Shown here: positions 5,952 to 23,931 of the stretch, piece by piece
Layout: the number at the start of each line of letters is the position of its first letter
How positions within the stretch are numbered: the stretch's first letter is position 1
Source of the DNA: Terriglobales bacterium
GTDB taxonomy: Bacteria > Acidobacteriota > Terriglobia > Bryobacterales > Bryobacteraceae
Length of the DNA: 64,000 bases
NCBI GenBank assembly: GCA_027485675.1
Contig: JAIXQP010000017.1
Location: 62,001-126,000 of the forward strand
Direction of reading: 5' to 3'
Made by a program: the position numbers and the translations under genes
Notes under the pieces: generated by a model
Seen by the model: the letters and a program-made list of their open reading frames with translations, nothing else
The model's database searches: none
What the model was told of the DNA's origin: nothing

Positions 5952-5961
5952 GTTAGACAAA

Positions 5962-8715: not shown

Positions 8716-9914
8716 CGGGCGGAGAGCTGCTGCTGTGGGCAGCTACGATCGCCGTGGTCACCCCGATCGCCGTCTTCGTCGTCGAGTGCCTCGCGGCCCT
8801 GCTCCCCCCTCGAGAGGAGGCGCCGCTCGGAGAGCGCCCGCCGGCGGTCGTACTGATCCCCGCGCACAACGAAGCCGCCGGGATCGCGGACACGCTTGCC
8901 TCCGTACGAATGCAGTTGAGCCCTGGCGATGAGGTGCTCGTGGTGGCCGACAATTGCACGGACGATACGGCGGCCATCGCCCGGCGGGAGGGAGCGACGG
9001 TCCTCGAGCGAGTCAATCCCGAACTGCGAGGCAAGTCGTATGCCTTGGATACCGGTGTCCGATGGCTGGCCGAACGGGTACGGCCGCCCGAGATCGTCAT
9101 CATTCTCGATGCCGATACCCTGCCCTGCCCCGGCGCGATTGAGGAGTTGGCGCGAACGGCGCACCACTACCACCAGCCCGTGCAGGGGGCCTATACCCTG
9201 CGTGCAGCGGGAACGCAGGTCTCCTCCGCGCTGGCCGCGTTTGCGTTTACCGTCCGCAACGTCGTCCGCCCGCAGGGCCTGCGGCGCCTCGGCCTGCCCT
9301 GCCTGCTGCACGGCTCCGGGATGGCTTTCCCTTGGCCGATCCTCTCCCGGGCGGCGCTCGCCAGCGGCCAATTGGCGGAAGATCGCTGGCTGGCGGTGGA
9401 CCTCGCTTTGGCCGGACATTGCACGCGCTTCTCGCCCGCCTCGATCACGGGCGCCTTCCCCACCGCCGCAAAGGCGGTGCGCACACAGCGGGAGCGTTGG
9501 GAGCACGGGCATCTGGAGACCATGCTCCGCCAGACGCCCCGGCTACTCGCCGGGGCCGTGCGCCAACGAAGGGCGGTACTTCTGGCGTTAGCCCTAGAAC
9601 TCGCAGTACCTCCTCTGTCTTTATTGGCGATTTGGTGGTTTGTTATCCTGCTATGTCAGGGAGTTGTCCTGGTTTTGGGTGGCCCTTGGCAACCGATGCT
9701 GGTGCTGGCGGTAACGGGCGTGGTTTGGCTCGGTACCCTCAGCATGGTACGGCGGCGGATCGGATCTCCGGGAGGTAAGGCCGGGGACGTCGTGCACTAT
9801 ATTGGGTCGAAATTGGCGTTGTATGGGACATATCTCTGGAAGCGGCAGAAACGTTGGATTCCTACCGAGCGCGATGGGGCTTCGGACGAACGCTCTAGCG
9901 GTCGCTCGGGATGA
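8712..9914 (+). CDS. Membrane-bound GT2, processive-type glycosyltransferase
   Basis: A 400-residue transferase with one N-terminal hydrophobic segment (about 8-33), a cytoplasmic GT2 domain, and two or three C-terminal hydrophobic segments (about 290-350). The core shows VVLIPAHNEAAGIADTL, VVADNCTDD, ILDADT (DXD) and an RTQRERWEHG block that matches the Q/RxxRW motif of processive enzymes such as cellulose synthase and NodC-like proteins. This suggests repeated addition of one sugar or a polyprenyl-linked acceptor at the membrane. It overlaps its neighbours by 4 bp upstream and 41 bp downstream, so it is part of the same unit. Product unknown. Confidence 0.85.
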   Translation: MTGGELLLWAATIAVVTPIAVFVVECLAALLPPREEAPLGERPPAVVLIPAHNEAAGIADTLASVRMQLSPGDEVLVVADNCTDDTAAIARREGATVLERVNPELRGKSYALDTGVRWLAERVRPPEIVIILDADTLPCPGAIEELARTAHHYHQPVQGAYTLRAAGTQVSSALAAFAFTVRNVVRPQGLRRLGLPCLLHGSGMAFPWPILSRAALASGQLAEDRWLAVDLALAGHCTRFSPASITGAFPTAAKAVRTQRERWEHGHLETMLRQTPRLLAGAVRQRRAVLLALALELAVPPLSLLAIWWFVILLCQGVVLVLGGPWQPMLVLAVTGVVWLGTLSMVRRRIGSPGGKAGDVVHYIGSKLALYGTYLWKRQKRWIPTERDGASDERSSGRSG

Positions 9915-10707
9915 GAGATTGCCCACCGTCTCGCTGCTGGGCGCCCGCATCACGGCGCTCGATGAACGTCAGATCGTTGCTTTTTTCTGCAAAGAGATAG
10001 CGGCCGGCCGCGGCGGCTGGATCTTCACGATGAATCTGGACCATCTGCGGCGTTTCGTGAAGGGGCCAGTGCGGGAACAGTGTCACCGGCTGGCGACGAT
10101 TATTACTCCGGATGGCATGCCGCTACTGTGGGCCAGCCGCTTGCAAGGGACGCCCGTGCCGGATCGGGTGAGCGGCGCTGACTTGATTCTTTCGATGACC
10201 GCGGCCGCGGCCCGCCGCAATTATTCCATCTTTCTCATTGGAGGCAATGGGGGAGCGGCCGAGGCTACGGCCGCCACGCTCCGGCAGATGCACCCCGGGC
10301 TCCGAATCGCCGGGATCAATTCGGCGTGGTTTGAAGCCGACGGCAGCAGTCCGGCCATGGACGCCTTGGTCGACGAACTGCGCCGGACTCGGCCCGACCT
10401 GGTATTCGTCGGAATTGGATCGCCCAAATCGGAGCGGATCACGGAACGGTTGCGGGCGAGCGTGGGAGCGGTCATGCCATCGACCTGGTGGATTGGCGTA
10501 GGCATCTCGTTCAGCTTCCTCTCCGGCCAGATCCCGCGCGCCCCGCACTGGATGCAGCGCTCTGGGCTCGAGTGGGTGCACCGCCTTTGCCAGGAACCCC
10601 GTCGCCTGGCCAAGCGCTACCTGGTCGATGGCCTGCCTTTTGCGGTGACGCTCTTCGCCCGGAGCTGGCTCCGGCGCTGGCGCCCCCCATCCCCGCATGA
10701 AGAGTAG
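9874..10707 (+). CDS. WecG/TagA/CpsF family glycosyltransferase (GT26)
   Basis: A 277-residue member of the family that includes UDP-ManNAc transferase WecG and teichoic-acid TagA, which add the second sugar to a polyprenyl-linked primer. Diagnostic blocks are present: VSLLGARITALDE, FTMNLDHLRRF, TPDGMPLLWASR, ILSMTAAAARRNYSIFLIGG, and VFVGIGSPKSE followed by WWIGVGISFSFLSG. The ATG at 9874 is taken as the start; an in-frame ATG at 9802 would extend a further 24 residues into the preceding gene and resembles nothing. Its presence implies that a primer sugar-phosphate transferase exists, but none is in this window. Confidence 0.88.
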   Translation: MGLRTNALAVARDERLPTVSLLGARITALDERQIVAFFCKEIAAGRGGWIFTMNLDHLRRFVKGPVREQCHRLATIITPDGMPLLWASRLQGTPVPDRVSGADLILSMTAAAARRNYSIFLIGGNGGAAEATAATLRQMHPGLRIAGINSAWFEADGSSPAMDALVDELRRTRPDLVFVGIGSPKSERITERLRASVGAVMPSTWWIGVGISFSFLSGQIPRAPHWMQRSGLEWVHRLCQEPRRLAKRYLVDGLPFAVTLFARSWLRRWRPPSPHEE

Positions 10708-13090
10708 TTCCGCCTGCGTCGCCGTCACACTGGTGATCTTTGCCATCGTGACGTTGATCCAGCTTCGCGGGGGAGTGTTCGAAGCCGACCTGGCCTCTCA
10801 CCCCGACGAAGCGGCCCACTTCATCACCGGGGCGATGGTGTATGACTACCTGCGCACCGCCATCGGATCCTCACCCATGGCCTTCGCCGAGGAGTATTAC
10901 GCCCGCTACCCGAAGGTCGCTTTCGGCCACTGGCCTCCCGGCTTCTATGGGATCCAAGCCGCCTGGTACGCGCTCTTTGGCGTTTCGACGACAGCGGGAA
11001 TGTCGCTGGTGGGGTGCGTGGCGGCCCTGGCGATCGCGGTTCTCGCCTGGCGGATCCACCGTCTCCACGGCGTCTGGATCAGCGTCGTGTGCACCGCGAT
11101 CACGCTGGCGCTGCCCTTGGTGCAGCAGGCGATGTTGACGATCCTCTCCGACATGGCGGCGGCGCTGTTCACGCTCCTGGCTCTATTCGCTTTAGGCGAG
11201 GCCTGGGAGCGCCCCAGCTTACGAGCGTGGGTTGGCTTCTGTGGTTGGATGATAGCGGCCCTGGTGACGAAGTCGAGCGCCCTGCCTTTGGCATTCATGG
11301 CCCCCCTGGCCGCTCTACCGCTTCTCCGGGGAACGTCGTGGCGTCCGCGCTCCTGGTGGGTTGTCACCGGAATCGTCATTGGCCTCGTAGGTGCCGCCGC
11401 GGCGGCGTTGGGGGTCGTTTTGCGATATCGGGGCTCCACGATGTTTGCCATCAACTGGCTCGAACGGCTGCCGCACTTGGCTTCGCTGCTGAGCGTTGTG
11501 CCATGGCCAGTCGGGCTGATGGCCGCCGCCGGCCTGTTCCGGGATTCCCGCGCGGGGACGGAACGCACGACGCTGGTGAAAGTCCTCGTGCTGTTCCTCG
11601 CAACCTCCATCCCGGCCCAGTTGTTTGCCCGCGATGTGGTCGAGACGCGCTATTTCTTGCCGCTGTTGTTTGCGATTCTGCTTCTGTGCGCGGAAGGTCT
11701 CCACCGCCTGTTCGATCAGTTGCCGGCAGCCAATCCTAGAAAGGGGTTAGCGCTCCGGCTGGCGCTGGGCGTGGGGCTGGTGCTTCTTACCATCCAACTC
11801 ACCCCAGCCTTTACGAGCCCCTGGCGACGTGGCTATCGCGAGGTGGCGCGAGCGATTCCAGCGCCGTCCGTGGTGCTCATCTCGGCCGATGCGTCGGGTG
11901 AGGGCGCCTTTATTGCAGCCCGCCGAAGCGAGGGCGGCGGGACAGCTGCGCGTACTGGCTTTGTCCTCCGGGCTTCGAAGCTCCTGCTGCGTTCGGACTG
12001 GATGGGCCGCGTCTACGAACCGAAGGTCTCCACCGTAGAGCAGTTGCACGAGATCCTCGATCGATCCAGCGTGCGCTTTCTCGTACTCGACAAGACCGGA
12101 TTTGAGTTCCTCCCGACCCGCCCCCAGCATCGCCTACTCCTTACCGCCGTCCAGGACTCCCGCCGTTTTCGATTGGCCGGCGAATTCCCGGTGACCAGTC
12201 GAGACGCGCGCTGGGGGAACGCCATCGCAGTCTACGAGAATCTCCTGCTCCCCAAGAACCAGTCCGGGGTAGTTCGCCTGGACTTAACGAATAGTCTGGG
12301 ACGCATTTTGGAGGTCCGTGTTCCTTCGCTATCGGACGAGCCGGATCCGCCGATGGCGCCGCCACCGCCGGTGCTCTCCAATGTGGCCGCGACTCTCCGG
12401 CTGGAGCCGGCGGAGGATCAAGTCGACTGGACCGGGGGTGCGGGCAAGGTCTACGTAGCCGGGCCGGAAGGCGCCCAATGGAACGTGGATTCTATCCCCT
12501 CGTGGATTCATGTAGCGGAAACCCGCGGCGCCGTTTCGTACACGGTGGAGCCGAACGATACCGGAGAGCGAAGGTCGGCCATCTTACGCATAGGCCAGAG
12601 ACCATATCCGGTAACCCAGGCCCGATCTCCCTACATCGCTATCCCGTACACGGAGCGGTTCACGGACTGGCAGGATCGGTGGGTTCTCGCGCAGCACGGC
12701 GAAAGAGCGTTTCTGCGAAACGGACCCACCACGCCGGACCTGGGCGCGACGGCGCTGGTGGAGAAGGCGCGAGTGGACCCCGCTCCCCACCTGACGCAGC
12801 TCTCGCTTCCCTTCGTGCGGCTTGAGCCCGGCCAGCGGTACCAGCTTTCCTTCTGGATCAAGTCCGAGCGAAGAGCGGAACTCGAGGTCGTTTTGTCCAA
12901 CAAGCGGCCGCCACATGCCTTCTGTGGCTTCGCCGAAAAGTTCTCCGCCACGGCCACTTGGACGCGGTTCTCCTTTCCGCTCCAGACCGCCGGCGGGGGC
13001 TGCACGCCGGAGACGAACCGGCTATCCTTCCAACTCGGCGGTCTTTCCGGCCAGTTGTGGCTCGCCGACCTCGCGATTCTGCCGCAGTAG
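10697..13090 (+). CDS. GT39/ArnT-like membrane glycosyltransferase with C-terminal BACON-like and CBM-like domains
   Basis: A 797-residue protein. Residues 1-390 hold about ten hydrophobic helices and an early periplasmic acidic motif (ASHPDEAAHF, D37/E38) as in polyprenyl-phosphate-sugar-dependent GT-C enzymes. Residues 390-540 form a soluble domain. A Pro-rich linker (MAPPPPV, about 553) leads to a small beta domain at about 575-642 (WNVDSIPSWIHV and YTVEPNDTGERRSAILRIG) that resembles BACON domains, and residues 650-797 look like a carbohydrate-binding jelly roll (FVRLEPGQRYQLSFWIKSE, WLADLAI). Domain names are inferred from pattern only. It probably adds a sugar on the periplasmic side. 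It overlaps the previous gene by 11 bp and the convergent ligase gene by 69 bp. Confidence 0.78.
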   Translation: MKSSSACVAVTLVIFAIVTLIQLRGGVFEADLASHPDEAAHFITGAMVYDYLRTAIGSSPMAFAEEYYARYPKVAFGHWPPGFYGIQAAWYALFGVSTTAGMSLVGCVAALAIAVLAWRIHRLHGVWISVVCTAITLALPLVQQAMLTILSDMAAALFTLLALFALGEAWERPSLRAWVGFCGWMIAALVTKSSALPLAFMAPLAALPLLRGTSWRPRSWWVVTGIVIGLVGAAAAALGVVLRYRGSTMFAINWLERLPHLASLLSVVPWPVGLMAAAGLFRDSRAGTERTTLVKVLVLFLATSIPAQLFARDVVETRYFLPLLFAILLLCAEGLHRLFDQLPAANPRKGLALRLALGVGLVLLTIQLTPAFTSPWRRGYREVARAIPAPSVVLISADASGEGAFIAARRSEGGGTAARTGFVLRASKLLLRSDWMGRVYEPKVSTVEQLHEILDRSSVRFLVLDKTGFEFLPTRPQHRLLLTAVQDSRRFRLAGEFPVTSRDARWGNAIAVYENLLLPKNQSGVVRLDLTNSLGRILEVRVPSLSDEPDPPMAPPPPVLSNVAATLRLEPAEDQVDWTGGAGKVYVAGPEGAQWNVDSIPSWIHVAETRGAVSYTVEPNDTGERRSAILRIGQRPYPVTQARSPYIAIPYTERFTDWQDRWVLAQHGERAFLRNGPTTPDLGATALVEKARVDPAPHLTQLSLPFVRLEPGQRYQLSFWIKSERRAELEVVLSNKRPPHAFCGFAEKFSATATWTRFSFPLQTAGGGCTPETNRLSFQLGGLSGQLWLADLAILPQ

Positions 13091-14371
13091 CGTGGCCGAT
13101 GCGGCCCCCAGTCCCCCAGCCGCCAGAAGAAAGACCGGACTGCCCATATCATTCACCAGGTTGTCGATGGCGAGCAGGATCAGGACGACTGCCCACGCGG
13201 CAGCCGGCGCCAGATCCGGCGCCCTCCATTGCGCGGGGGGGACGGCCCGCAAAAAGAGGAGGATCGGGGTCAGGATCGTTGCCAGTACGCCGGCCAGCCC
13301 GACCAGCCCGAACTGTCCGTAGACGATCACCCACAGGCTATCCGCCTCGATGAACTGCCCCGCCGGAGAGGTGAAGGCAGCGGCGCCACGACCGAGGCCC
13401 AAGAACGGACTTCGGCTGGCGTTCGCCACAATAAGGTTCTCGTGCTCGAACCGGTAGGCCAGGGACTGCGCTTTTTCCGGGTTGACGGGGGCAATGACGC
13501 GCCGGGTGCTTTCGCCTTGCCAAACTCCGGACGCGCGAACCGCCACAAAAGCCGGCACGGCGGCCAGCAGACAAGCAACCAGAACGCGGCTCCGGGTGTA
13601 GGTCGTGAGCAGCAGGATGGCAATTCCGGCCGGCAACAGGATCCACGCGTTGACGCTGCGGCTGGCGATGGTCGTCAGCAACAGAGCCAGCACCGCCCAT
13701 CCGGCCAGCCGGCCTCCGCGAAGCTGGCCCTGGCGCCACATCCAGAAACCGATCACGGACGCTGCCGTCATCCAGAGCGCGAGCATCAGTCCCATGTGCA
13801 TAAACACGCTGGGACGCCATCCCCCGAAACGGTTCGCCATATGGAGTTCGTGCGGATAAAAGCCATAGAGCATCTGGTGAAGCCGCGGTCCCGCCCACAT
13901 CTCATAGAGGCAAAGCGGCACGTAGAGTAGTGCCGCGGCGACCTGGGCCAGGGCCAACTCCCGCAGTCCGGCCCAGTCCGCCAGATAGACGCGGCCGAGC
14001 AGATACGGCGCGCCCCATTGCACGAACTGCCACAGGAAGACGGATGCCGCCTCCCAGGCGCTGCCGGAGTTCCACCAAGTAGAGACGACAGGCGAAACGC
14101 AAACGACCGCTACCGGGAGATCGATCCACTGCGGGCGTAGAGCGAGCAGCCGCCGCGCGTCGAACAGAACCACGGCCAGCCATGCGGCGAGCACGACGGA
14201 CATGGGCTTATTGAAGTTGGGCCATCCTGGCGTATCGAAGCTCGCCACCGGGAGAAAAAGCCACCCGGCGAGGACCGCAACGATCACCACCCGCCGGAGC
14301 GGCAGGAAGGCCGCGAGCGCCACTACGAAGGGGATCCATCCGATCAGAGCGATGGGTACGAGCAAGGTCAT
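13022..14371 (-). CDS. O-antigen ligase / polymerase-like membrane protein
   Basis: A 449-residue protein with 10-12 hydrophobic segments. The order is typical of the Wzy/WaaL (O-antigen ligase, Wzy_C) group: several N-terminal helices, a longer central loop that here contains NPEKAQSLAYRFEHENLIVA, and a conserved region SPFLGLGRGAAAF then SLWVIVYGQFGLVGLAGVLA. Such enzymes polymerise or transfer lipid-linked glycans in the periplasm. It is convergent with the GT39-like gene, and the last 69 bp of both genes overlap on opposite strands. Start ATG at 14371; 72 bp separate it from the methyltransferase gene. Ligase versus polymerase cannot be decided from sequence. Confidence 0.78.
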   Translation of the reverse strand: MTLLVPIALIGWIPFVVALAAFLPLRRVVIVAVLAGWLFLPVASFDTPGWPNFNKPMSVVLAAWLAVVLFDARRLLALRPQWIDLPVAVVCVSPVVSTWWNSGSAWEAASVFLWQFVQWGAPYLLGRVYLADWAGLRELALAQVAAALLYVPLCLYEMWAGPRLHQMLYGFYPHELHMANRFGGWRPSVFMHMGLMLALWMTAASVIGFWMWRQGQLRGGRLAGWAVLALLLTTIASRSVNAWILLPAGIAILLLTTYTRSRVLVACLLAAVPAFVAVRASGVWQGESTRRVIAPVNPEKAQSLAYRFEHENLIVANASRSPFLGLGRGAAAFTSPAGQFIEADSLWVIVYGQFGLVGLAGVLATILTPILLFLRAVPPAQWRAPDLAPAAAWAVVLILLAIDNLVNDMGSPVFLLAAGGLGAASATLLRQNREVGEPQLAGKTAELEG

Positions 14372-14443
14372 TGTTGCTGTCTACGGCGCGGCTCGCGCGA
14401 GAACGCCGTGATAAAAGCGTAGCAGGCGACCGGGTCGCCACGA

Positions 14444-15364
14444 TCATCCCTTCGAGGATAGCGATGCGTGAACACGAACGGAATCGTACTTAATGGCCGG
14501 CCTGGCAAGCGCGGTCTCCCACAGCAGTTGCCAAGCCTGGACTCCGTAGTCCGGACCGGGCTGGATGCGGGACTGTACGGCCAACCATTCCGGCTTGAAC
14601 TGTCGAGTGTAGCCCGTGTAGAACGTCTTCACGACGGTCAGCCCGGCAGCCTGCAGCAGCCGCGTGAGCGAATTCGCCGTGAACAGGTGCAGGTGGCGAG
14701 GCACATCCGCCCAGGGCCAAGCGCCGTGGAGCCGGTGCAGGCCCAAGGCTTCGTTGTTCGGCACTTCGACGATGACCGTACCGTCCCCGGGAGTCAGGAT
14801 CTGCCGGATGTTCTCGAGCGCGCGGGCCGGTTCCCTGCAATGTTCCAACACGTGCGAAAGCAGGACTACGTCGAACCGGCGGCCGGTGATGGCGGGCGGC
14901 AGGTGTTCCGCCGTTCCCTCGTAAACCTCCGCTTCCCTCTGGGCCACGGTGCGGGCGGCCGCATTGATTTCGACCCCGGTCACTTGATAGCCGCAATCCC
15001 GAAAGAGGCGCAGTTGGTGGCCACTGCCGCAGCCGATGTCACAGAGAGTGGGCGCCTCATGCCGGGCCGGCAGATCCACTTCGGCCGGTGAGAGGTCGCG
15101 GCCCTGATCGAAAGACCACGCCAGCCGGATGCGCAGCCGTTCGAGAAAAGTTGGCGGAGAGGCTGGCGTAGTGTCCCAGGGCTGGTAGTAGCCGGAGACC
15201 TCGTAGAAGCCGGCGACTGTGGTGGCATCGAAGTCTCCGGCCACCCGGCCGTAACCGCAAGCGCTACACCAGTGCACGGCGTAACGGGCGCTGTCGTGCG
15301 GGCGCCGGTAGTCGTGCGTGCTGAACAGGGGTGGCATCAAGCCACGGCAGAGCGGGCAATTCAT
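14444..15364 (-). CDS. Class I SAM methyltransferase with N-terminal Cys motif
   Basis: A 306-residue protein. Residues 1-40 contain two CxxC pairs (CPLC at 3-6 and CSAC about 30 residues later), probably a small zinc ribbon. The SAM-binding motif TLCDIGCGSGHQLRLF follows, then VTGVEI, and DVVLLSHVLEHCREP as motif post-I. This combination is common in polysaccharide-locus and O-methyl sugar methyltransferases. ATG at 15364 is chosen because it directly precedes the CPLC motif; the frame is open for another 50 codons, but that leader is basic low-complexity sequence overlapping the divergent upstream region. It points the same way as the ligase gene. Confidence 0.85.
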   Translation of the reverse strand: MNCPLCRGLMPPLFSTHDYRRPHDSARYAVHWCSACGYGRVAGDFDATTVAGFYEVSGYYQPWDTTPASPPTFLERLRIRLAWSFDQGRDLSPAEVDLPARHEAPTLCDIGCGSGHQLRLFRDCGYQVTGVEINAAARTVAQREAEVYEGTAEHLPPAITGRRFDVVLLSHVLEHCREPARALENIRQILTPGDGTVIVEVPNNEALGLHRLHGAWPWADVPRHLHLFTANSLTRLLQAAGLTVVKTFYTGYTRQFKPEWLAVQSRIQPGPDYGVQAWQLLWETALARPAIKYDSVRVHASLSSKG

Positions 15365-15516
15365 CTTCCGCTTTCCTACTATAGCGGGACCGCGACGGAC
15401 CATTGAGCGATCCCTGCGGCTTCGTCTGCGCGACGGTTTCGCGAGGCTGCATCCTTGCGCCACCCCCAAGAGTTGTATCGTGGAATTTGGGGATTTCCCG
15501 CGGGAGTTTTGCAAAT

Positions 15517-16545
15517 TTGAGTGAGACCGTTTACCCCCTTTCGCTGCAGGCGAACGGGGGCCCTCTGTTCACGGACGGCGTCTGGTCCGGCTATGTGGCG
15601 TTTGATACTCCGGGCCTGACCTTAGCCCAACTGGAGGCCGTGGCCCACTACTACTACTCGTTGGGATACGGATACTTCTGCCCGACCATGGTCACCTCCA
15701 GCCCGGAGGCCTATCAGGCCAATCTCCCCGTGTTCCGCGCCGCGCGCGATCAGGACTGGGGCCAAGGGATTCTGCCCCCCCATCTGGAAGGTCCCTTCTT
15801 TTCGCCGGACTGCATGGGTGCGCACAACCCCAGCCTCCGCCAGGAACCGAGCATCGCCTTCGCCGAAAAGCTTATCGCCTGGTCCGGCGGCTTTCTTGGC
15901 TTCCTCACCATGGCCCCGGAACGGCCGGGCGCTCTCGAAACAATCCGCTTCCTTGCGTCACAAGGCGTTGGCGTGAGCCTTGGCCATATGAACCCGGTAG
16001 TCGAAGAGATCCAGGCCGCCCTCGAGGCCGGCGCCACCGCATTCACACACGTACTGAACGCGGCCACCCGCGACAAGCTCTCCGCCAAAGACCTGCGCAT
16101 GGTAGCCCAGTTCACGGACCGCCGCGCCTGGTCGATGATCATCCCCGACGCCGTCCATGTGCCCGCGTACGCGGTGCAATTAATGGCGCAGAGTAAAGGG
16201 CCGGATAAGGTAATCTTCGTCGCGGACGAAAGTCCGTTGATCGGCGCGCCCGAAGGAACCACGGCCGAGCTTTGGGGCCAGACCTTTGCCATTCGGCGGG
16301 ACGCCGCCGGCCGCCTCCGTTCGTTCGAACTTAGCGGATCCTGCACCACGTTAATCGAGTGCATGAACATCGCCCACGCCTGGGGCCTTCCCCGCGCGGT
16401 GATCGAAGCCGCCGTCACCACGAACGCCGCCGCTTTTCTTGGGCCCTCGCTCCAACGCTGGCAAATCTCCTTGGCGGAAACTCCAACGCACACCCAGGGC
16501 GTGGCCTTTGACGGGGCCTCCTACGTCCCGGGAGACCGAAACTAA
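15517..16545 (+). CDS. NagA-like amidohydrolase (N-acetylglucosamine-6-phosphate deacetylase family)
   Basis: About 342 residues. The family hydrolyses N-acetyl groups from amino-sugar phosphates. Metal and catalytic motifs are recognisable: PPHLEGPFFSP (metal Glu), VSLGHMNP (metal His), AFTHVLNA (metal His) and VIFVADESPL (general-base Asp). The N-terminal beta-sandwich half of ordinary NagA is short, and the HxH pair is not obvious. A TTG at 15517 with an upstream GGAG-like sequence is proposed as start; the frame opens at 15403, but those 38 codons cover the divergent promoter region. It sits directly before a ROK-family gene with no gap, suggesting an amino-sugar unit. A second, more canonical NagA lies at 51.8-53 kb. 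Confidence 0.75.
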   Translation: MSETVYPLSLQANGGPLFTDGVWSGYVAFDTPGLTLAQLEAVAHYYYSLGYGYFCPTMVTSSPEAYQANLPVFRAARDQDWGQGILPPHLEGPFFSPDCMGAHNPSLRQEPSIAFAEKLIAWSGGFLGFLTMAPERPGALETIRFLASQGVGVSLGHMNPVVEEIQAALEAGATAFTHVLNAATRDKLSAKDLRMVAQFTDRRAWSMIIPDAVHVPAYAVQLMAQSKGPDKVIFVADESPLIGAPEGTTAELWGQTFAIRRDAAGRLRSFELSGSCTTLIECMNIAHAWGLPRAVIEAAVTTNAAAFLGPSLQRWQISLAETPTHTQGVAFDGASYVPGDRN

Positions 16546-17916
16546 ATGCAACTGATTCCCCCCTCCATCACACCGAGTCTCGACCCCGACTTCCGCCCCG
16601 CGGCGCTGGCCTGGCGGGCCTTTGCCGACTCCATCGCCGGACAGGCGCGCCCCATCCGGATCGCCATCGAGCAGGGCGACGGCTCCACCTACGTTTTCGA
16701 GCGGAACATTTCCCAAGACAACGTGGCGGTCAACCTGCGCTACCTCGAGCGCGAATTGAAGTTTTTGCTCTGGGCCGTGGGCGGCTTCCGTATTCATCTG
16801 GATGCGCCCGCAGAGTTGGTTGTCCTGCTGCGTGACTACGTCTACCGCTACGACGCCAATCGCCTCTTTGACCAGGAGGTGATGGGGCCGACGATTTATG
16901 GCCGCCCCTGCGAGGTTGTTCACGCGCCGGGATCGGCCTTTCCGGCGGCGCGCCATGTGACGCTGCCGCTCGGCCGCCATCGGGGCGGCTGCCGCGTGGC
17001 GATCGACAAAGGCGCCTCCGACATCAAGGCCTATGCCGAACAGGACGGGGTAACGACCTTCGCCGGAGAGTTCAAATGGGACCCGAAGCCGCAGACGGAT
17101 CCGGCCTATCACAACCATCATATCCGCCACGCCATTGCGGCGGCGGCGGCGACGCTGCCGCGGGTGGATGCGATTGGCGTGAGTTCAGCCGGGGTCTACA
17201 TCGCCAACGAGCCACGAATCGCTTCCCTGTTCCGGGGCCTGTCGCGGGCGGATTTCGAGCGCGCGATCGTGCCGATGTACCACCGCATTCGCGAGGAGTT
17301 TGGGGGCATTCCATTGATTGTCGCCAACGATGGCGCGGTGTCGGCGCTGGCCGGGTCGATGTCGTTGAACCGGAACCGGGTCCTGGGGGTGGCGTTTGGC
17401 AGCAGCCTTGCGGCGGGCTATGTTGACGCCGGGGGCAATATCACGACCTGGTTGGACGAGTTGGCATTCGTCCCCATCGACATGAACCCCTTGGCTCCGG
17501 CGGACGAATGGTCGAACGACCGGGGATGCGGTGTGCAGTACCTCTCCCAGCAGGCGGTGAACCGGCTGCTGACGCCCGCGGGGATTGTGTTTCCCGCCGA
17601 GATGGGGGTTCCCGAGCGGCTCGAGCACGTGCAGGCGATGCACCGGCAGGGCGATCCAAGGACGGCCGGGATCTACCAGACGATCGGGGTCTACTTTGGG
17701 TACGCGCTCGCGCACTACGCCAACTACTACGACATGGGCACGGTGTTGGTGATGGGCCGGGTGACGACCGGCGAAGGCGGGGAGATGATTCTTCGGGTGG
17801 CCAATGAAGTCCTGGCCAAGGACTTCCCCCACCTCAGCATCGATATCCGGCTGCCGGACGAAGCCAGCCGCCGGGTGGGCCAGGCGGCCGCTGCAGCGTC
17901 GCTGCCGCAGATCTAG
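16546..17916 (+). CDS. ROK-family sugar kinase-like protein
   Basis: A 456-residue protein assigned to the ROK (repressor, ORF, kinase) group. The ATPase-type motifs are present but not textbook: VAIDKGASDIKAYAEQDG as phosphate-1, IGVSSAGVYIANEP, LIVANDGAVSALAG, and VLGVAFGSSLAAGYVDAGG in place of the usual LGTGIGGG. No helix-turn-helix is seen, so it is more likely an enzyme than a repressor. The N-terminal 150 residues precede the ROK core and are not recognised. It begins immediately after the NagA-like stop, and joint amino-sugar phosphorylation and deacetylation is a reasonable inference. The substrate is unknown. Confidence 0.72.
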   Translation: MQLIPPSITPSLDPDFRPAALAWRAFADSIAGQARPIRIAIEQGDGSTYVFERNISQDNVAVNLRYLERELKFLLWAVGGFRIHLDAPAELVVLLRDYVYRYDANRLFDQEVMGPTIYGRPCEVVHAPGSAFPAARHVTLPLGRHRGGCRVAIDKGASDIKAYAEQDGVTTFAGEFKWDPKPQTDPAYHNHHIRHAIAAAAATLPRVDAIGVSSAGVYIANEPRIASLFRGLSRADFERAIVPMYHRIREEFGGIPLIVANDGAVSALAGSMSLNRNRVLGVAFGSSLAAGYVDAGGNITTWLDELAFVPIDMNPLAPADEWSNDRGCGVQYLSQQAVNRLLTPAGIVFPAEMGVPERLEHVQAMHRQGDPRTAGIYQTIGVYFGYALAHYANYYDMGTVLVMGRVTTGEGGEMILRVANEVLAKDFPHLSIDIRLPDEASRRVGQAAAAASLPQI

Positions 17917-17933: not shown

Positions 17934-20900
17934 CTACTGCAACAGAGGAATCTCTAGGTGGCTGGCGAAAGAGTCTGCCGCCGCCACCTGCTCAACGATC
18001 GCGAGTGCGTCCCGATAGGCGGCCACAACCTGATCGATGGCGAAATCATCATGCGCCAACGACGGAAGCATATAACCCACGAAGGTTAAAACCCCTCGCT
18101 GCAGCAGTTCCTGCTGCAGCAGGGTGCGGCGCAGACGGCGCCGAAACGGGTCTGGCTCGTCGTATTTGTAGATCATCCGGATCGGCAGGCCGATCATGGC
18201 GCCTGCGGCTCCAACCTCCTGGCTGACGGCGTCGATACCGTCGAACAGCCGCCTGCCAATCCGGTCGATTGCCGCCGGGACGTCGTCCCGCTCGTAAATC
18301 GTCAACGCCGCTCTCGCCGCTGCCAGGGAATACATCTCGCCTCGGAAGGTCGGATAGTACGCTGCTTGAGAGAGAGTTCCGCCCAAAATGGCCTTCTTCC
18401 CGGTCAGAGCCGAAAGCGCCATTCCTCCGCTCAATGCCTTCCCCCAACAGGTCAAATCCGGCACAACGCCCGTAGCCTGCTGCACGCTTCCCCCGGCATA
18501 ACGGAAGCCGGTAATGATCTCATCGAAAATCAAAACGATCCGTTGCCGATCGCAAAGCCGCCGGACCGCGGCGAGGAACTCCCGATCCGCATCGAGGATG
18601 GGTCCGTCCACACTGACCGCCTGCGCGCCCGGCTCAATCATCACCGCCGCAACTTCGCCGGCGTGGTCGGCCAGCAACTGCTCTAAGCTCCGGAGGTCGT
18701 TCGGAGGGAAGCGGAACAGCTCGGGCGGCGAGCCCGGCGAAGATAGCTCCGGCTGGACCTGTTGGACATACCAATCGTGCCAGCCGTGGTAGCCGCTGTA
18801 AAGGATCTTTCTGCGCCGGGTATGGAGGCGAGCGACCCGCACGGCCACGGTGCAGGCGTCCGACCCGTGCTTGCCGAAAAGCACCATCTCCGCTCCGGGC
18901 GTACGCCGGCGGAGCATCTGCGACACCTCGATTTCGAGCACGTGGGGCAGCGTCATCAAAGCACTCGTGGTCAATCGTGCCGCGATCGCGGCTTGAATCT
19001 CCGGGTGGGCATATCCAAGCAACGCCGATCCCCCGGTCATCGCCAGATCAATCCACTGATTCCCCTCAAGGTCGGTTAAACGGCATCCCGCGGCATTCGC
19101 CATCACGCTCGGGTAGGGCCGCCCGCTACGGCTCTTCAGGATGCACTCCCCCGGCAGCCAGAAGGCCCAATTCGAGTCCATCGAGATAGCCATTGCCTCC
19201 GCCGAAGGACCCGAAAGCGCTGGGCCTACACTGAGTTCCCAGTTCAATGCCTCCGCCCCGGGCCCTTCGAACCAAGTAACCTGCTGCTCCACCAGCTTGA
19301 ACTGCAACGAGCATCTCCCCCGGTCGGCCGGAGTTTCCATCCGAAAGGTAATGAGCGCCTCCTCATCTGGCAGGGTGTCGGCGGGTAAGTCAATCTGACG
19401 GCTGACCACCCCATTCACGATCACCGCCAACTGCGTCGGACGTCCCTCGCTCTCCGTCCGCCGCCAAAGCCTGGAGCCCGTGTTCTGGCAGCGGAGGTAC
19501 ACCTGGTACGCGGCGCCGGCCGGCCACACCGCGGGCAAATTATGTTCGAGCCAAGCCACTCCATGCTCCGGCCTCCGGTCGGCCTCCGTGGCAGGAACCG
19601 CGACATGAAGCGGCCTGGCACCGTGTTGCTCGAACCACGCGGTGTTCTGTTCAACGAAGGTAAACCGGAGACTTCGGATACCACGGTCCTGGCCGGGAGG
19701 AAATTCGATCGGGAAATCGAATTCGACTTCGCCGTGGCTCTCCACATCATGCGGCAGCTCGACAATCCGTAGGAGTTCGGTCTTCTGATAAACGAGCAGG
19801 TTAACGGAATATCCGGCGGGATGGCGGGCTGGCCAACGCCTCGTGCCCTGATTCTTCACCCGCAGCCTAATCCGGTGCTCAAGTCCAGAAGGCAACAGCG
19901 CGGGAATTTCGGATGCGAGCCAACCAACAGCGTAGGGCCCAGCCGCCACGGCCTCCACCGGTTTCCGTTCCGTTTGCGCGTTCTCCTGTCCGGCGGGCGA
20001 GTCCGCGAGTACACGAACGGTTCCCGAGAAGATCTCCACCCCAGCTTCCCGGCGGAACTGCTCCTGTTGCGCTACCAAGACAAGACGGACGGCGAGCGTA
20101 GCAGGCTCGACCGGCGGTACAACGTCAAACACGAAGCGATGACGGCAGAACGGCTGAATGTCCCGCGGGAGGACCAGCGTCTGGACCGGCTGTCCCTCCA
20201 CGTCGACGAGCAGCCGCACCTCGGCTGGGTGTTCTCCCGCGGGGGGATACCATCCGCGGGTGCCGGTGTTTTCGACGTGGGCATATAGACACAATGGACG
20301 AGCCGCCTCCCACTCCGCTGGAATGTGCCAGTTGAGGAGCCGGGCGCTGAACTCCAGCCCCCCATAAAGGAGAGTCTGCCGTTCCTTTACGGGAGGAATC
20401 AGACCCTGTTCGGCCAGTTCGTGCATCTGCTGATGCGCTCCTTGGAGCAAAGCGGGCACCCGCAGACCCACCGGGCAGCGGCACGTTACGTTGGCACAGG
20501 TTGTACAGGCGAGTTCAAGGTACGGATAGACTTCGAAATACTCACAGTCCTTGTGTAACTCGTAAGTTGCACTCGGGTACTGATTGACGAGCGCAGACCG
20601 CAGCATATTGGACAGCGGGAGTTGCTGGCTGCAGGTCTCGTCGCATTGGCCGCAACGGCTGCAGATGTTGGCCTGGGTTTCCGTCAGTAATCCCGTGAGC
20701 GCTTCGCGAGCCCCGGCCGACAGCGTCTTCCGTTTCACCCCGGCCGCAGCGTTCTGGCGGGCTTCGTCCACCGAAGCGGTGCCCGGCACCACACTGGCGA
20801 TTCGGCGATCTTCGAGCAGTTCGCGCAGGATCGTCTCGGCGGGTACAACCGCGTGGCCGGCCAGTGCCGTCCGCCGGGGAGGGAACGCCTCACTCCTTGT

Positions 20901-22601
20901 AAGGAGGCCGCCCGCCAATGGCTTCATCATCAGGACCCCGACGACGTGCTCGGCACAAAGATCGAGGATCTCCCCATTGCGCGCGAGATTTTCCGTCTCC
21001 CGGCCGGCCGGCGGCGGCGAGGTGAGCAGGTGGAATCCAAGGGCGTTATGCGCCATCATGATGGCGTCGAAATGGCCACTACGCACGAGCTTCGCAATAT
21101 AGTCCGGCGAACCGTGGGTGGTGCAGAAGGTTGCGCCCAGCCTGCCTTCCTGTTTCTTTTTCTCGAGAAACGCAACCATCCCCTGCTTTCCCCAAACGTT
21201 CTCCTGGTAGGCCTCGCGGTCATCAATACAGGCGATGCCGAACAGGTCAAGCCGGTCCGTCCCCAGGCGCCGGCAGGTCTGCTCGAATAGCCGCTCAAAC
21301 TCCGCCACAGGACCGAATTGGTTACCCGGCATATCAAAGCCTTGCGAGGCGACGATCACTTTGGCCTGGCTCTGACGAAGCGCCTTGCCAATAAACTCCT
21401 CCGCGCGGCCATAGTCCGGGGCGGTGTGCAGGAGATTGACGCCGGACTCAAAGCCAGCCAGCAGGGTGTCGATCGCCTGGCGCTCGGGCAGAACCTGAAA
21501 CTGGCACGTGCCGAAGCCAACCGCGGAGACATGCAGGCCGGAACGGCCTAGGCGGCGGTACTCCATCTCCGGCGCTCGGGTCGCGTTTTGAATCTGCACC
21601 AGTTCGGGAAATGGCGAGCGGACGACCTGGTAGGCGCGTTCTACGCGCTTGGCGATCTCCATTTCCGGCGTAAACCGGTTTCCCGTGTGCCCGAACGTGA
21701 CCCGGTGGTTTTCTGCTTCGAGGCCATGTCGCATTGTGGCCAGCGATTCCACGACCAATGGCTTGGAATCCGGTTCGTCGAAATCAATATCGAGGATGAT
21801 CGAGTCGGGCTTCAGGAGGCGGCACTGCTCGAGAAAGCCATCCCGGTCCGCGGCGCCCGCGTTGTCATCCTTCATGATGTATTTCACCGTAACCAAGGCA
21901 CCGAGGTCTTTCCATTTGCGCAAGTTTTCCCATACGCGGGCAAAGTAGTCCCGGGCCTTAATGCGCCGGTAAGTAGCAGGGGTGCCGGAGTCCACCGAGC
22001 AGATAATGTGAACATTGTGGGGACGCGGCACCTGCAGCGTGTCCGGATCCCGAGTGCCGTTGGTGTGAATGTAGTTGAAGGTCCCGGCTTCGAGCAGTAA
22101 CTGGAGGACCTGCGGAAAATCTTTGTAGAAGGTCGGCTCCCCGCCCCCGCCCCAATCAACCACCGCGTCCGGCGACAACTGGCCCCGCCGCAGCAGATCG
22201 CGCACGGTGTCGGCGATCAGATAGGGTTGAAACTTTTGCGCTGCGACCGCCAGACCCTTCGTCTGTAACTCGCAATAATTGCATTCGATGTTGCAGTAAA
22301 CCCAGTTCCCGAGGCCCAGGTAATCGATCGCGTATTCCTTCTGGGGCCATTCCTTGTATTCGAGCAGCGCGCAGCCGGCGCAAGCGGGAAAACGCTCCGG
22401 CGATTGGTTGGCCTCCTGGATTTCAGCCCGCAGCGCCTGGAGCCGCTCCAGGGGGAAAGCGCCTCCTTCGAAGTCGCAAATCTTCGGCTGACCGGTGTGG
22501 TGATGCGGTACGGAGCAGACATGCAGACTGCTGTAATGAAAGCTAACTCCGCCTTCAATAAAGGCGCAACTCCACCTGGCAATACCCGCAGTAGTTGGCA
22601 C
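17934..22601 (-). CDS. Radical SAM - pseudo aldo/keto reductase - Ig-like x3 - aminomutase-like aminotransferase fusion
   Basis: A continuous 1555-residue frame starting at GTG 22601. Residues 1-90 hold Cys12, 29, 42, 74 and 77, a SPASM-like cluster placed before the core. Residues 95-345 are radical SAM: C103-x3-C107-x2-C110 and GGGEPT at 152-157. Residues 347-640 are an aldo/keto reductase fold (YRRLGRSGLHVSAVGFG), but the catalytic tetrad Asp/Tyr/Lys/His reads His392/Tyr397/Gln420/Ala457. Cys647, 650, 653 and 657 form a CxxCxxCxxxC cluster, with more Cys at 686, 699, 702, 707 and 709. Three beta-rich repeats at about 756-865, 893-1002 and 1015-1127 share the N-T/Q-G-x-x-x-W motif. Residues 1138-1555 match class III transaminases, with PLP lysine K1388 in CWGKALSGG and Asp1360. 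No signal peptide. Function unknown; coupling rSAM chemistry to transamination is inference. Confidence 0.85.
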   Translation of the reverse strand: MPTTAGIARWSCAFIEGGVSFHYSSLHVCSVPHHHTGQPKICDFEGGAFPLERLQALRAEIQEANQSPERFPACAGCALLEYKEWPQKEYAIDYLGLGNWVYCNIECNYCELQTKGLAVAAQKFQPYLIADTVRDLLRRGQLSPDAVVDWGGGGEPTFYKDFPQVLQLLLEAGTFNYIHTNGTRDPDTLQVPRPHNVHIICSVDSGTPATYRRIKARDYFARVWENLRKWKDLGALVTVKYIMKDDNAGAADRDGFLEQCRLLKPDSIILDIDFDEPDSKPLVVESLATMRHGLEAENHRVTFGHTGNRFTPEMEIAKRVERAYQVVRSPFPELVQIQNATRAPEMEYRRLGRSGLHVSAVGFGTCQFQVLPERQAIDTLLAGFESGVNLLHTAPDYGRAEEFIGKALRQSQAKVIVASQGFDMPGNQFGPVAEFERLFEQTCRRLGTDRLDLFGIACIDDREAYQENVWGKQGMVAFLEKKKQEGRLGATFCTTHGSPDYIAKLVRSGHFDAIMMAHNALGFHLLTSPPPAGRETENLARNGEILDLCAEHVVGVLMMKPLAGGLLTRSEAFPPRRTALAGHAVVPAETILRELLEDRRIASVVPGTASVDEARQNAAAGVKRKTLSAGAREALTGLLTETQANICSRCGQCDETCSQQLPLSNMLRSALVNQYPSATYELHKDCEYFEVYPYLELACTTCANVTCRCPVGLRVPALLQGAHQQMHELAEQGLIPPVKERQTLLYGGLEFSARLLNWHIPAEWEAARPLCLYAHVENTGTRGWYPPAGEHPAEVRLLVDVEGQPVQTLVLPRDIQPFCRHRFVFDVVPPVEPATLAVRLVLVAQQEQFRREAGVEIFSGTVRVLADSPAGQENAQTERKPVEAVAAGPYAVGWLASEIPALLPSGLEHRIRLRVKNQGTRRWPARHPAGYSVNLLVYQKTELLRIVELPHDVESHGEVEFDFPIEFPPGQDRGIRSLRFTFVEQNTAWFEQHGARPLHVAVPATEADRRPEHGVAWLEHNLPAVWPAGAAYQVYLRCQNTGSRLWRRTESEGRPTQLAVIVNGVVSRQIDLPADTLPDEEALITFRMETPADRGRCSLQFKLVEQQVTWFEGPGAEALNWELSVGPALSGPSAEAMAISMDSNWAFWLPGECILKSRSGRPYPSVMANAAGCRLTDLEGNQWIDLAMTGGSALLGYAHPEIQAAIAARLTTSALMTLPHVLEIEVSQMLRRRTPGAEMVLFGKHGSDACTVAVRVARLHTRRRKILYSGYHGWHDWYVQQVQPELSSPGSPPELFRFPPNDLRSLEQLLADHAGEVAAVMIEPGAQAVSVDGPILDADREFLAAVRRLCDRQRIVLIFDEIITGFRYAGGSVQQATGVVPDLTCWGKALSGGMALSALTGKKAILGGTLSQAAYYPTFRGEMYSLAAARAALTIYERDDVPAAIDRIGRRLFDGIDAVSQEVGAAGAMIGLPIRMIYKYDEPDPFRRRLRRTLLQQELLQRGVLTFVGYMLPSLAHDDFAIDQVVAAYRDALAIVEQVAAADSFASHLEIPLLQ

Positions 22602-22722: not shown

Positions 22723-23781
22723 CTACTTCTCGCCCGTCACTTCACTCACCATACGGAAGAAAGCTCGCTTCCTCTCGGTGTTCAAACCCCAGTTTACCGG
22801 CGGGCTCTGGTAGCCGTCAGGATCGAAATAGCCCCAACTGGCGTACTCATCAATGGCTGCCTTGAAATTGTTATCTTCCTTATCGAAATCGAAATGGTCG
22901 TCTTCGTTGAAGAGGATCGGCTTCGGACGGTAACTGGGCTGCTGGCGGACCCGCTGCACCATCTGCCGGATCACGGCGGGATCCTTCACGCCGTTGCCAT
23001 GCAGCACGACAAAGTCCGAAGCGGCCACGACGGCTTCCGCCGGAATGCGGCCCCCGTTGAAACTGGTGCCCACCAGAAGGCGCCGGCCGCGCTTGGTAAC
23101 TTTCTGAGCGTCGCGGATCAACAGCGGAATCAACTCCGGCTTCAAGCTGGCTTGTTGATAAGCGCGGTTGTCGCATTCGTTCGCCACTTCGAGCAGGACG
23201 TTCCGATAGTCGCGAGACAGGATAAACTCCACGGTCTCCATCAGCGCCTTGCGGACGGCTTTATCGGAGGTCAATCGTTCGTCCTGGCCGAAGTAGAAGA
23301 CGCTGACCATGGGCGCCATGCCGAGTTCGTTCGCGCGGTCCAGGATCAAGCCGAGGCGCTCGCGATACTCCGGATAAATCGACCCATCGGGGCGGAAGGC
23401 GCCAGTTTCCCAAGGCTGGCTTTTCGAGTATCCCTCCGGGCTGCCGCCCTGCATGCCGATCGTGAAGCTGAGAAGGCCGTGGCGTCGCCATTCGGGCATC
23501 GCGGCGATGAATTCGCGGGTATTCCTGCCGGCGTCCCAGCGTCCGGTGTCGGGGTATTTCCAGCGGTCGACGGTGAGAGAGTTGCGATCGTCGAAGATTC
23601 CCTGGATCATGCGGGAGTTCATGAGCAGGCCTTCGATCTTCTTTCCTTTCCACGTGCGCCCGGCGTAGGTGGGCTTGCCGTTGAGGAGAAAGCGATCGCC
23701 ATCGATGGCTACTTCGGTGCGCGCGGAAGCGGCATGAAGGGGCGCCGAGAGGGCTGCCAAGAGCAGGATCCGTCTTTGCAT
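22723..23781 (-). CDS. Exported glycoside-hydrolase-like TIM-barrel protein
   Basis: About 352 residues. An N-terminal signal peptide (QRRILLLAALSAPLHAASA) precedes a domain beginning DGDRFLLNGKPTYAGRTW, a typical opening of GH5-like and related cellulase-fold proteins. Later blocks fit a (beta/alpha)8 glycosidase: LLEVANECDN with a candidate acid/base Glu and ILFNEDDHFD with a candidate nucleophile Glu. The family is not certain and the substrate is unknown. Start choice: ATG at 23781 begins the signal peptide; ATG at 23790 adds three residues. Neither has an ideally spaced ribosome-binding site. It is separated by 121 bp from the large fusion gene on the same strand. Confidence 0.65.
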   Translation of the reverse strand: MQRRILLLAALSAPLHAASARTEVAIDGDRFLLNGKPTYAGRTWKGKKIEGLLMNSRMIQGIFDDRNSLTVDRWKYPDTGRWDAGRNTREFIAAMPEWRRHGLLSFTIGMQGGSPEGYSKSQPWETGAFRPDGSIYPEYRERLGLILDRANELGMAPMVSVFYFGQDERLTSDKAVRKALMETVEFILSRDYRNVLLEVANECDNRAYQQASLKPELIPLLIRDAQKVTKRGRRLLVGTSFNGGRIPAEAVVAASDFVVLHGNGVKDPAVIRQMVQRVRQQPSYRPKPILFNEDDHFDFDKEDNNFKAAIDEYASWGYFDPDGYQSPPVNWGLNTERKRAFFRMVSEVTGEK

Positions 23782-23931
23782 GGCCTCCATGCTATCGCAA
23801 CCCGAGCGGCGCCGGACGGAATGCGGCACCCTTGACTCTGTTAAGGGCGAAGGTTGACCGTAGAGCCCAGCTGTCGCTCAACAGAGCGGCTGCGGCAATC
23901 TCCCCAAAAATCGAAGACGAATCCGGGGAAA

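Follow-up and report, generated by a model that had tools for sequence, protein, structure and literature searches.

A single protein joining radical SAM, degenerate aldo-keto reductase and aminotransferase domains is the fully fused form of an enzyme cassette found in distant bacteria

Introduction

The genome of a Terriglobales bacterium of the phylum Acidobacteriota (GenBank assembly GCA_027485675.1) contains a gene whose composition raises the question of whether a radical S-adenosylmethionine (SAM) domain, an aldo-keto reductase (AKR)-like barrel and an aminotransferase, which are found in a single reading frame, belong together in function. The gene is located on contig JAIXQP010000017.1 within the stretch from position 62,001 to 126,000, whose 64,000 nucleotides are referred to as the window, and it encodes 1555 residues comprising a radical SAM domain, the barrel, two iron-sulphur (Fe-S) motifs, three immunoglobulin (Ig)-like repeats and a class III aminotransferase dependent on pyridoxal phosphate (PLP). 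A sequence-only reading of the window had noticed these parts and had suggested that a radical step and a transamination are carried out on one substrate. Here we describe the window gene as the form of a three-component enzyme cassette in which all components are fused. The first component is a radical SAM enzyme that bears a probable auxiliary Fe-S domain, and the second is a catalytically degenerate AKR barrel to which two Fe-S motifs and an Ig-like domain are attached. The third is a PLP-dependent aminotransferase of class III, usually equipped with an Ig-like domain of its own.

Results

The components recur as separate, partly fused and fully fused genes

The set of barrel, Fe-S motifs, Ig-like domains and aminotransferase was found in thirteen genomes of Acidobacteriota and of the phylum of a Planctomycetaceae record, in one of them only as fragments, with genes that are separate, partly fused or, as in the window, fully fused. 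Most genome searches scored the best few candidates per genome, and these counts are lower bounds. Within the genus of the window, the barrel/Fe-S part is present in 8 of 19 genomes, namely in four full fusions and in the genomes G004, G007, G013 and G010. An arrangement extending from the barrel to the aminotransferase occurs in the latter four genomes and forms one intact open reading frame (ORF) only in G004, where a protein of 1049 residues containing the barrel, Fe-S, Ig and aminotransferase parts starts exactly at the position of M346 of the window protein, and where a separate radical SAM-like gene of 361 residues overlaps the end of this core gene by 4 bases. A gene of the same kind overlaps the aminotransferase by 4 bases in G007, whose core is split over two contigs, and in G013 and G010 the cassette is broken or fragmentary.

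A search of 396 genomes of the wider phylum gave matches in five. Apart from the window's own genome, the true relatives among them are G358 and G179. G179 contains three consecutive genes encoding a barrel-Fe-S-Ig protein (cut by the contig end), an Ig-aminotransferase protein and a radical SAM/SPASM protein, and in G358 a radical SAM/SPASM protein, a barrel-Fe-S-Ig protein and an aminotransferase are encoded by open frames that overlap successively. The other two of the five, G271 and G310, were dropped as generic Fe-S aldo-keto reductases. A profile of the barrel/Fe-S part, termed A5, retrieved G179 and G358 alone among the 38 genomes of their class. The same profile matched 1 of 294 genomes around the Planctomycetaceae record and 3 of 141 in the class of that match, the first included. 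G608 carries a barrel-Fe-S-Ig-Ig-aminotransferase frame, the start of which is cut by the contig end, and G1249 and G1250 possess separate barrel and aminotransferase genes together with a radical SAM gene, which in G1249 is divergent, with a pentapeptide-repeat ORF between it and the barrel gene. No A5 match was obtained in 6 genomes with related aminotransferases, in 198 genomes of the phylum of locus L105 or in 146 of that of locus L092, searches that had no positive control and show little. Plasmid records returned AKR-type matches only (20-27% among the best 15 of 18), all of them with less than 80% of the query covered, and the one matching region that was inspected, from Acetoanaerobium, carried no annotation.

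In 4 of the 13 genomes the radical SAM part is fused to the core, and in 6 of the 9 others (G004, G007, G179, G358, G1249 and G1250) it is a nearby gene, in a raw count uncorrected for chance. The remaining three cassettes (G608, G013 and G010) run into a contig end on one or both sides, and the visible downstream side of G608 (~6.5 kb) holds no radical SAM gene. The recurrence for which the sequence-only reading had proposed to look was thus found in both forms and, because the same parts are adjacent or overlapping in distant bacteria and fused in the genus of the window, it strongly supports the view that they form one conserved set with a functional link between them. Homologues existing always as separate adjacent genes, the contrary outcome considered in that reading, were not seen; separate and fused states both occur.

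The pentapeptide-repeat ORF of G1249 (locus L145, 8978-9922, plus strand) was identified with Pfam, and an ORF of similar appearance was recognized by eye in G1250 (L146, 4767-5783, plus strand). Beside the latter, a frame at 5826-7571 of L146 (plus strand) resembles by eye, in its first 200 residues, the N-terminal B12-binding region of a radical SAM protein.

The same joint is present in four separate assemblies

An assembly or frameshift error that joins separate genes would give the same appearance, and relatives with separate genes do exist. The unbroken frame of the sequence-only reading, which had not mentioned the strand, is present over 1555 codons on the minus strand, and a script located its motifs at the residues claimed (CNIECNYC at 103-110, GGGEPT at 152-157, CSRCGQCDETC at 647-657 and WGKALSGG at 1386-1393). 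The domain search that it had recommended yielded Pfam matches above cut-off to Radical_SAM (residues 102-237, 50.8 bits versus a cut-off of 29.5), Aldo_ket_red (361-619, 74.2 versus 24) and Aminotran_3 (1159-1529, 156.9 versus 30.5), and matches below cut-off to Fer4_17 (634-661) and N_BRCA1_IG (1027-1108). Its account of the cysteine clusters was correct for the motif at 647-657 and had overlooked a second motif, CTTCANVTCRC at 699-709, and a probable N-terminal twitch cluster formed by C12, C29, C74 and C77.

Homologues with the same joint were looked for in 121 genomes and, besides the window's own genome, were found in G017 (82%, query residues 5-1555), in G006 (66%, query residues 7-1554) and in G001 (82%), where the frame is open to residue 1422 and then breaks. 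M346, the equivalent of the start methionine of the G004 core protein, is kept in all four fusions. Ratios of non-synonymous to synonymous substitution rates (dN/dS) between the window and G017 range from 0.05 to 0.18 over nine domain segments and reach 0.31 in the 20-codon linker between the first two Ig-like repeats, values that are rough, as dS of 1.05 to 2.3 is near saturation. The comparison with G006 gave 0.10 to 0.23 in six computable domain segments and 0.39 in the linker, with three segments saturated, and that with G001 0.04 to 0.07 in four computable segments. These ratios indicate that every domain of the fusion protein is under purifying selection. The identical joint in four separate assemblies and the signature of selection rule out an assembly artefact, the probability of which we regard as negligible, and the Pfam domain matches together with this selection equally rule out a chance frame. 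Broken aminotransferase frames are found in G001 near residue 1420 and as stops within the matches of G013 and G010 (L108 near 13925; L112; L115), and reflect either assembly errors or decay.

The barrel has lost catalytic residues of aldo-keto reductases and retains eight cysteines

The second component shows the AKR fold in a Foldseek search with a model of residues 1-760 (model 1), where the target TM-score for the reductase 1ynp is 0.71 (best 50 matches). Within this fold, the catalytic Asp-Tyr-Lys-His tetrad is incomplete, as is also found by alignment to 1ynp: Asp is replaced by His392, Lys by Gln420 and His by Ala457, and only Tyr397 is kept, which supports the label 'pseudo-AKR' that the barrel had been given. 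Among the thirteen members of the family, the Asp is a His in eight, an Asn in four and unreadable in one; the Lys is absent from all thirteen, and in the twelve readable members the His is always absent and the Tyr always kept. All eight cysteines of the following Fe-S region are likewise kept in the 12 of 12 readable members.

The two motifs of this region align with the two 4Fe-4S motifs that follow the barrel in generic Fe-S aldo-keto reductases at loci L123 and L124 (29-30% identity), which are presumably of the COG1453 type. L124 matches seven of the eight cysteine columns. These proteins keep the Asp, Tyr and Lys, whereas the cassette barrels have lost the Asp and Lys and continue into an Ig domain; both groups are devoid of the His. 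The cassette barrel is thus a descendant or a sister of the Fe-S aldo-keto reductases. With its altered tetrad, it is unlikely to act by conventional hydride transfer, and it probably serves in electron transfer and docking.

The radical SAM part is an exchangeable component

The C103, C107 and C110 motif and a profile score above cut-off place the N-terminal part of the fusion in the radical SAM superfamily, for which the Foldseek search with model 1 provided no structural confirmation, with only AKRs among the best 50 matches. The residues C12, C29, C74 and C77 preceding the core are conserved in the four fusions, are aligned in stand-alone relatives at loci L137 and L138 and resemble an auxiliary-cluster site of the twitch type, from which we propose the presence of a corresponding cluster. 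In this respect, the domain is similar to N-terminal-twitch radical SAM proteins of the NF033640 kind, although its NF033640 score of 22.9 is below the cut-off of 170. Such proteins carry the auxiliary-cluster cysteines before the core and differ in that they are stand-alone, with no barrel or aminotransferase beside them in the stretches examined.

A search of 396 genomes with the window radical SAM domain gave four matches, the own genome included, of which that in G144 is short. The domain is only weakly similar to its counterparts in other cassettes (best E-values of 8e-5 for G1249 and 0.002 for G179, with nothing useful to the G004 type). Better relatives were found in G140 (L137, 33%) and G416 (L138, 23%), which are stand-alone and located among glycosyltransferase-type genes in polysaccharide-type loci as judged by eye. 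The radical SAM protein is thus an exchangeable component with three types across the cassette family and, because of these closer relatives outside the cassettes and the weak similarity to those within, the fusion lineage seems to have taken in a different radical SAM protein with an N-terminal twitch. Among the other cassettes, the radical SAM genes of G1249 and G1250 share 39% and 42% identity with that of G179. With respect to auxiliary-cluster cysteines, Pfam SPASM matches above cut-off in G1249 and below in G179, a twitch family matches partially in G004, and those in the window and in G358 were recognized by eye. The 361-residue gene of G004, which contains a CX5CX2C motif, matches NCBIfam radical SAM/SPASM families below cut-off (best 1.7e-12), and Pfam Radical_SAM gave no match to it.

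Several features of these proteins were observed in passing. CX5CX2C replaces CX3CX2C in the radical SAM-like proteins at L110 (7065-8150, minus strand) and L114 (8546-9622, minus strand), the former of which has no Pfam Radical_SAM match and matches NCBIfam radical SAM/SPASM families below cut-off. A domain with a 'GWAL' motif is inserted between the core and SPASM of the cassette radical SAM proteins at L122 (3882-5621, minus strand) and L145 (7012-8895, minus strand). A second copy is located at the end of the G1249 radical SAM protein, and GWAC and GWAY were seen by eye in a large glycosyltransferase-like ORF of L137. In the G416 locus (L138, 3660-8140), a sugar nucleotidyltransferase-like gene is accompanied by two different radical SAM-like genes, of which one is related to the window radical SAM domain, with functions assigned by eye.

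The aminotransferases form one group and are accompanied by Ig-like repeats

The Aminotran_3 profile and K1388, which aligns with a lysine of glutamate-1-semialdehyde aminomutase (GSAM, 3fq8) that we take to be its PLP lysine, assign the C-terminal domain to the class III aminotransferases. Among the best 50 Foldseek matches, the nearest is FumI (target TM-score 0.88), followed by GSAM (up to 0.86) and the C-6' aminotransferases GenB3 and GenB4 (0.76-0.78). The fold, the PLP lysine and the overall sequence are shared with GSAM- and PRK06209-like aminotransferases, but the window protein scores far under the curated NCBIfam cut-offs (173 versus 527 for hemL and 225 versus 486 for PRK06209), which rules out glutamate-1-semialdehyde aminomutase as its function. 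The cassette enzymes also form a separate group in a tree of 36 sequences, where ten of them are found on one side of a branch with support of 100/100, the comparison being made with 26 other class III enzymes hand-picked from homology matches, with G1249 and G1250 entering as 194 and 228 residues and with G013, G007 and G010 left out as fragments. One origin for the cassette aminotransferases is therefore likely.

The three repeats with N-x-G-x-x-x-W described in the sequence-only reading were recovered in a repeat alignment, and the motif is common to all fourteen aligned repeats from 7 of the 13 members. Five of the fourteen match the NBR1 FW family at an E-value of 0.01 or less, and the N_BRCA1_IG gathering score of 28 is not reached, with 17.3 for the window and 24.8 for G006. 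A comparison of the repeats with the PDB returned nothing significant (best E-value of 0.012 for a designed protein and 0.18 for beta-galactosidases). In the split cassettes G179, G358, G1249 and G1250, an Ig repeat is present in all four barrel proteins, in G1249 and G1250 as recognized by eye, and in three of the four aminotransferase proteins, G358 being without. FW domains of NBR1 bind proteins (PMC9582228, PMC9233695), and bacterial FW domains are known (PMC9582228). Because some of the repeats resemble this domain below the Pfam cut-off, a role in partner binding, as suggested previously, is plausible.

Gene neighbourhoods point to sugars

The sequence-only reading had placed the gene between a polysaccharide locus and amino-sugar genes. 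NagA-like and ROK-like genes are indeed located downstream in convergent orientation, and both accompany the fusion in G017 and G001, whereas the polysaccharide block lies beyond them and is absent at that place from these two genomes. This block of ~13 kb (window 2470-15514), flanked by a dipeptidase-like and the NagA-like gene, contains glycosyltransferase, O-antigen-ligase-like and methyltransferase genes, and since the flanking genes are adjacent in G017 and G001, it was inserted or lost. For the NagA-like gene, there was no Pfam match at 0.001. The glycosidase-like gene directly upstream of the fusion matched neither Pfam at 0.001 nor NCBIfam at 1e-6 (Table 1).

Outside the window, the neighbours of 8 of 80 loci with related aminotransferases were read by eye. 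NeuB-like genes together with SpsF-like, nucleotidyltransferase or short-chain dehydrogenase/reductase genes were recognized in five of the eight (L028, L029, L030, L041 and L100) and an SpsF-like gene alone in one (L039). As judged in the same manner, two GT4-like genes are located ~3 kb from the core of G608. These neighbourhoods point to sugars, short of proof.

Table 1. Features of the fusion gene and of its neighbours, with positions in the window.
Feature	Residues	Position	Strand	Basis and remarks
Fusion-protein gene	1-1555	17934..22601	-	GTG start, stop included; unbroken frame
Twitch-like N-terminal region	10-80	22362..22574	-	C12, C29, C74, C77; putative auxiliary [4Fe-4S] site
Radical SAM domain	96-340	21582..22316	-	Pfam Radical_SAM 2.8e-13; CX3CX2C 103-110, GGGEPT 152-157
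Degenerate aldo-keto reductase barrel	346-640	20682..21566	-	Pfam 1.2e-20; Foldseek 1ynp, target TM-score 0.71
Fe-S dicluster region	641-745	20367..20681	-	CX2CX2CX3C 647-657, CX2CX4CXC 699-709
Ig-like repeat 1	752-880	19962..20348	-	Repeat alignment; strands in model 2
Ig-like repeat 2	906-1016	19554..19886	-	Repeat alignment; strands in model 2
Ig-like repeat 3	1017-1136	19194..19553	-	Resembles NBR1 FW domain; N_BRCA1_IG 0.007, below cut-off
Class III PLP aminotransferase	1141-1555	17937..19181	-	Pfam 8.1e-46; PLP lysine K1388; Foldseek
Glycosidase-like secreted gene (by eye)		22723..23829	-	Directly upstream; homologue upstream in G017, ~0.7 kb away in G001
ROK-like sugar kinase		16546..17916	+	Convergent; Pfam ROK 0.00032, below cut-off; conserved beside fusion in G017, G001
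NagA-like deacetylase		15403..16545	+	NCBIfam nagA 5.2e-33, below cut-off; beside ROK-like gene in G017, G001

Discussion

A possible mechanism and its precedent

We tentatively propose that the cassette oxidises its substrate by radical chemistry, drains the electrons via its Fe-S clusters and then aminates the new carbonyl with PLP, a scheme that we regard as the likeliest of those considered, although possible rather than probable. The radical SAM site would abstract hydrogen from a C-H group of the substrate, most likely at the carbinol carbon of a sugar or of a group resembling one, and the resulting radical would yield a carbonyl by giving an electron to the twitch cluster. The barrel with its dicluster would hold the complex together and drain, or supply, electrons through the Fe-S clusters instead of transferring hydride, and the aminotransferase would convert the new carbonyl to an amine. 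The Ig repeats would serve as tethers or docking surfaces, which in split cassettes would let the halves find each other. Both chemical steps would in this way take place on one substrate, as the sequence-only reading had assumed, which is perhaps a surface sugar. A precedent for radical oxidation is found in butirosin biosynthesis, where the aminotransferase BtrS aminates the ketone product of BtrN. These are separate proteins, with BtrS belonging to another aminotransferase class, and we know of no AKR barrel, dicluster or Ig repeats in this system. BtrN itself is described as a twitch-type radical SAM enzyme that oxidises an aminocyclitol to a ketone, with the auxiliary cluster as proposed electron acceptor (PMC9012708).

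Several observations weigh against this proposal. Pfam finds no SPASM domain in the window protein, and because the window radical SAM domain is not orthologous to those of cassettes elsewhere, the radical chemistry may differ between cassettes. The loss of the AKR His says little, since L124 also lacks it, and the barrel may still bind nicotinamide and have an unforeseen redox role because P606, G607 and E613 (12 of 12 cassette barrels) and N617 (11 of 12), which we take to be residues of the AKR nucleotide site, are mostly kept. An electron path cannot be traced in the structure models, whose Fe-S region and linker are too uncertain: model 1 has a mean predicted local distance difference test score (pLDDT) of 72 and a predicted TM-score (pTM) of 0.51, with the linker 305-343 under 50, and model 2 (residues 345-1544) a mean pLDDT of 78.8 and a pTM of 0.49, with the Fe-S region 647-723 under 50. 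As the linker between the radical SAM and AKR parts and the Fe-S region are of low confidence, the relative placement of the active sites cannot be read from the models. With respect to the sugar substrate, G017 and G001 lack the window's polysaccharide block at the corresponding place, two of the eight aminotransferase loci (L050 and L085) contain no genes of the NeuB-like or SpsF-like type, and no sugar-modifying cluster was recognized beside the G006 and G004 genes by eye, without a profile scan of those neighbours, G004 having one possible glycosyltransferase ~5 kb away.

Alternative explanations

The barrel and its dicluster might instead donate the electron that starts SAM cleavage, with the radical step itself being redox-neutral (an epimerisation, dehydration or rearrangement) and the aminotransferase acting before or after it at another carbon, so that oxidation and amination would not be coupled. 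Eight conserved cysteines beside a radical SAM partner are as compatible with a dedicated reductase as with an acceptor, and the exchangeability of the radical SAM part, with its three types, would be in line with such a role. What makes this explanation unlikely are the auxiliary-cluster cysteines in several cassette radical SAM proteins (G1249, G179, G004, the window and G358), since auxiliary clusters are typical of oxidising enzymes such as BtrN, PqqE and SuiB, with MoaA as an exception (PMC9012708).

A different kind of substrate would be a peptide or protein, of which a radical SAM/SPASM enzyme would oxidise a side chain or the C-terminus for subsequent amination by the aminotransferase, with the FW-like Ig domain binding the target. 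SPASM radical SAM enzymes often act on peptides, and a pentapeptide-repeat ORF is located between the radical SAM and barrel genes of G1249. The binding of proteins by NBR1 FW domains (PMC9582228, PMC9233695) would fit, as would daptide pathways, where oxidative decarboxylation of a peptide is followed by an aminotransferase (PMC10036551). However, no recurring small ORF is visible beside the cassettes, where ORFs under about 90-100 residues were not searched, and the associations with sugar genes point elsewhere, which renders modification of a peptide improbable. It would also be conceivable that each part has its own substrate within one pathway and that the parts were brought together only to be co-expressed or to share a location. 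The low confidence of the linker 305-343 in the model would be expected of a disordered tether, and the Ig repeats look like spacers, but the three parts stay together in two phyla, the aminotransferase is likely of one origin and Ig domains remain with the parts even in split genes, and we would be surprised if such an explanation applied.

Relation to known systems and implications

Pfam and NCBIfam models (for NCBIfam, the best 25 of 88 matches) cover single parts of the window protein only, and in searches of the open-licence literature, as far as titles and the starts of abstracts tell, we found no enzyme joining a radical SAM domain, an aldo-keto reductase and an aminotransferase. Daptide biosynthesis, whose aminotransferase is presumably MpaD, shares with the cassette the succession of an oxidative step and an amination. 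The aminotransferase of that system is of the PF00202 type, its oxidation is NAD(P)-dependent and involves an accessory protein bearing a RiPP recognition element (RRE), and the available portion of the source contains no such fusion or Fe-S barrel (PMC10036551). The swf polyketide cluster, as far as it is covered in the accessible text, has nothing in common with the cassette beyond a radical SAM gene (PMC3908369). The single parts are known, and the combination and the series from split to fused forms appear to be undescribed.

If the cassette oxidises and then aminates a single substrate as proposed, it would allow one protein to turn an unactivated alcohol into an amine, which would be useful for glycan chemistry and biocatalysis. 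A use of the degenerate aldo-keto reductase barrel as possible electron relay would be unexpected to specialists, and the split cassettes offer smaller proteins amenable to individual testing. The natural series of split, partly fused and fully fused forms would show how multi-domain radical enzymes assemble. In its broadest and rather doubtful form, the proposal would define a new class of amination machine in at least two phyla, in which radical SAM chemistry, a retired aldo-keto reductase serving as Fe-S relay and PLP-dependent transamination operate sequentially on one bound glycan, and in one genus of Acidobacteriota this machine would have been condensed to one polypeptide with the net effect of turning C-OH into C-NH2.

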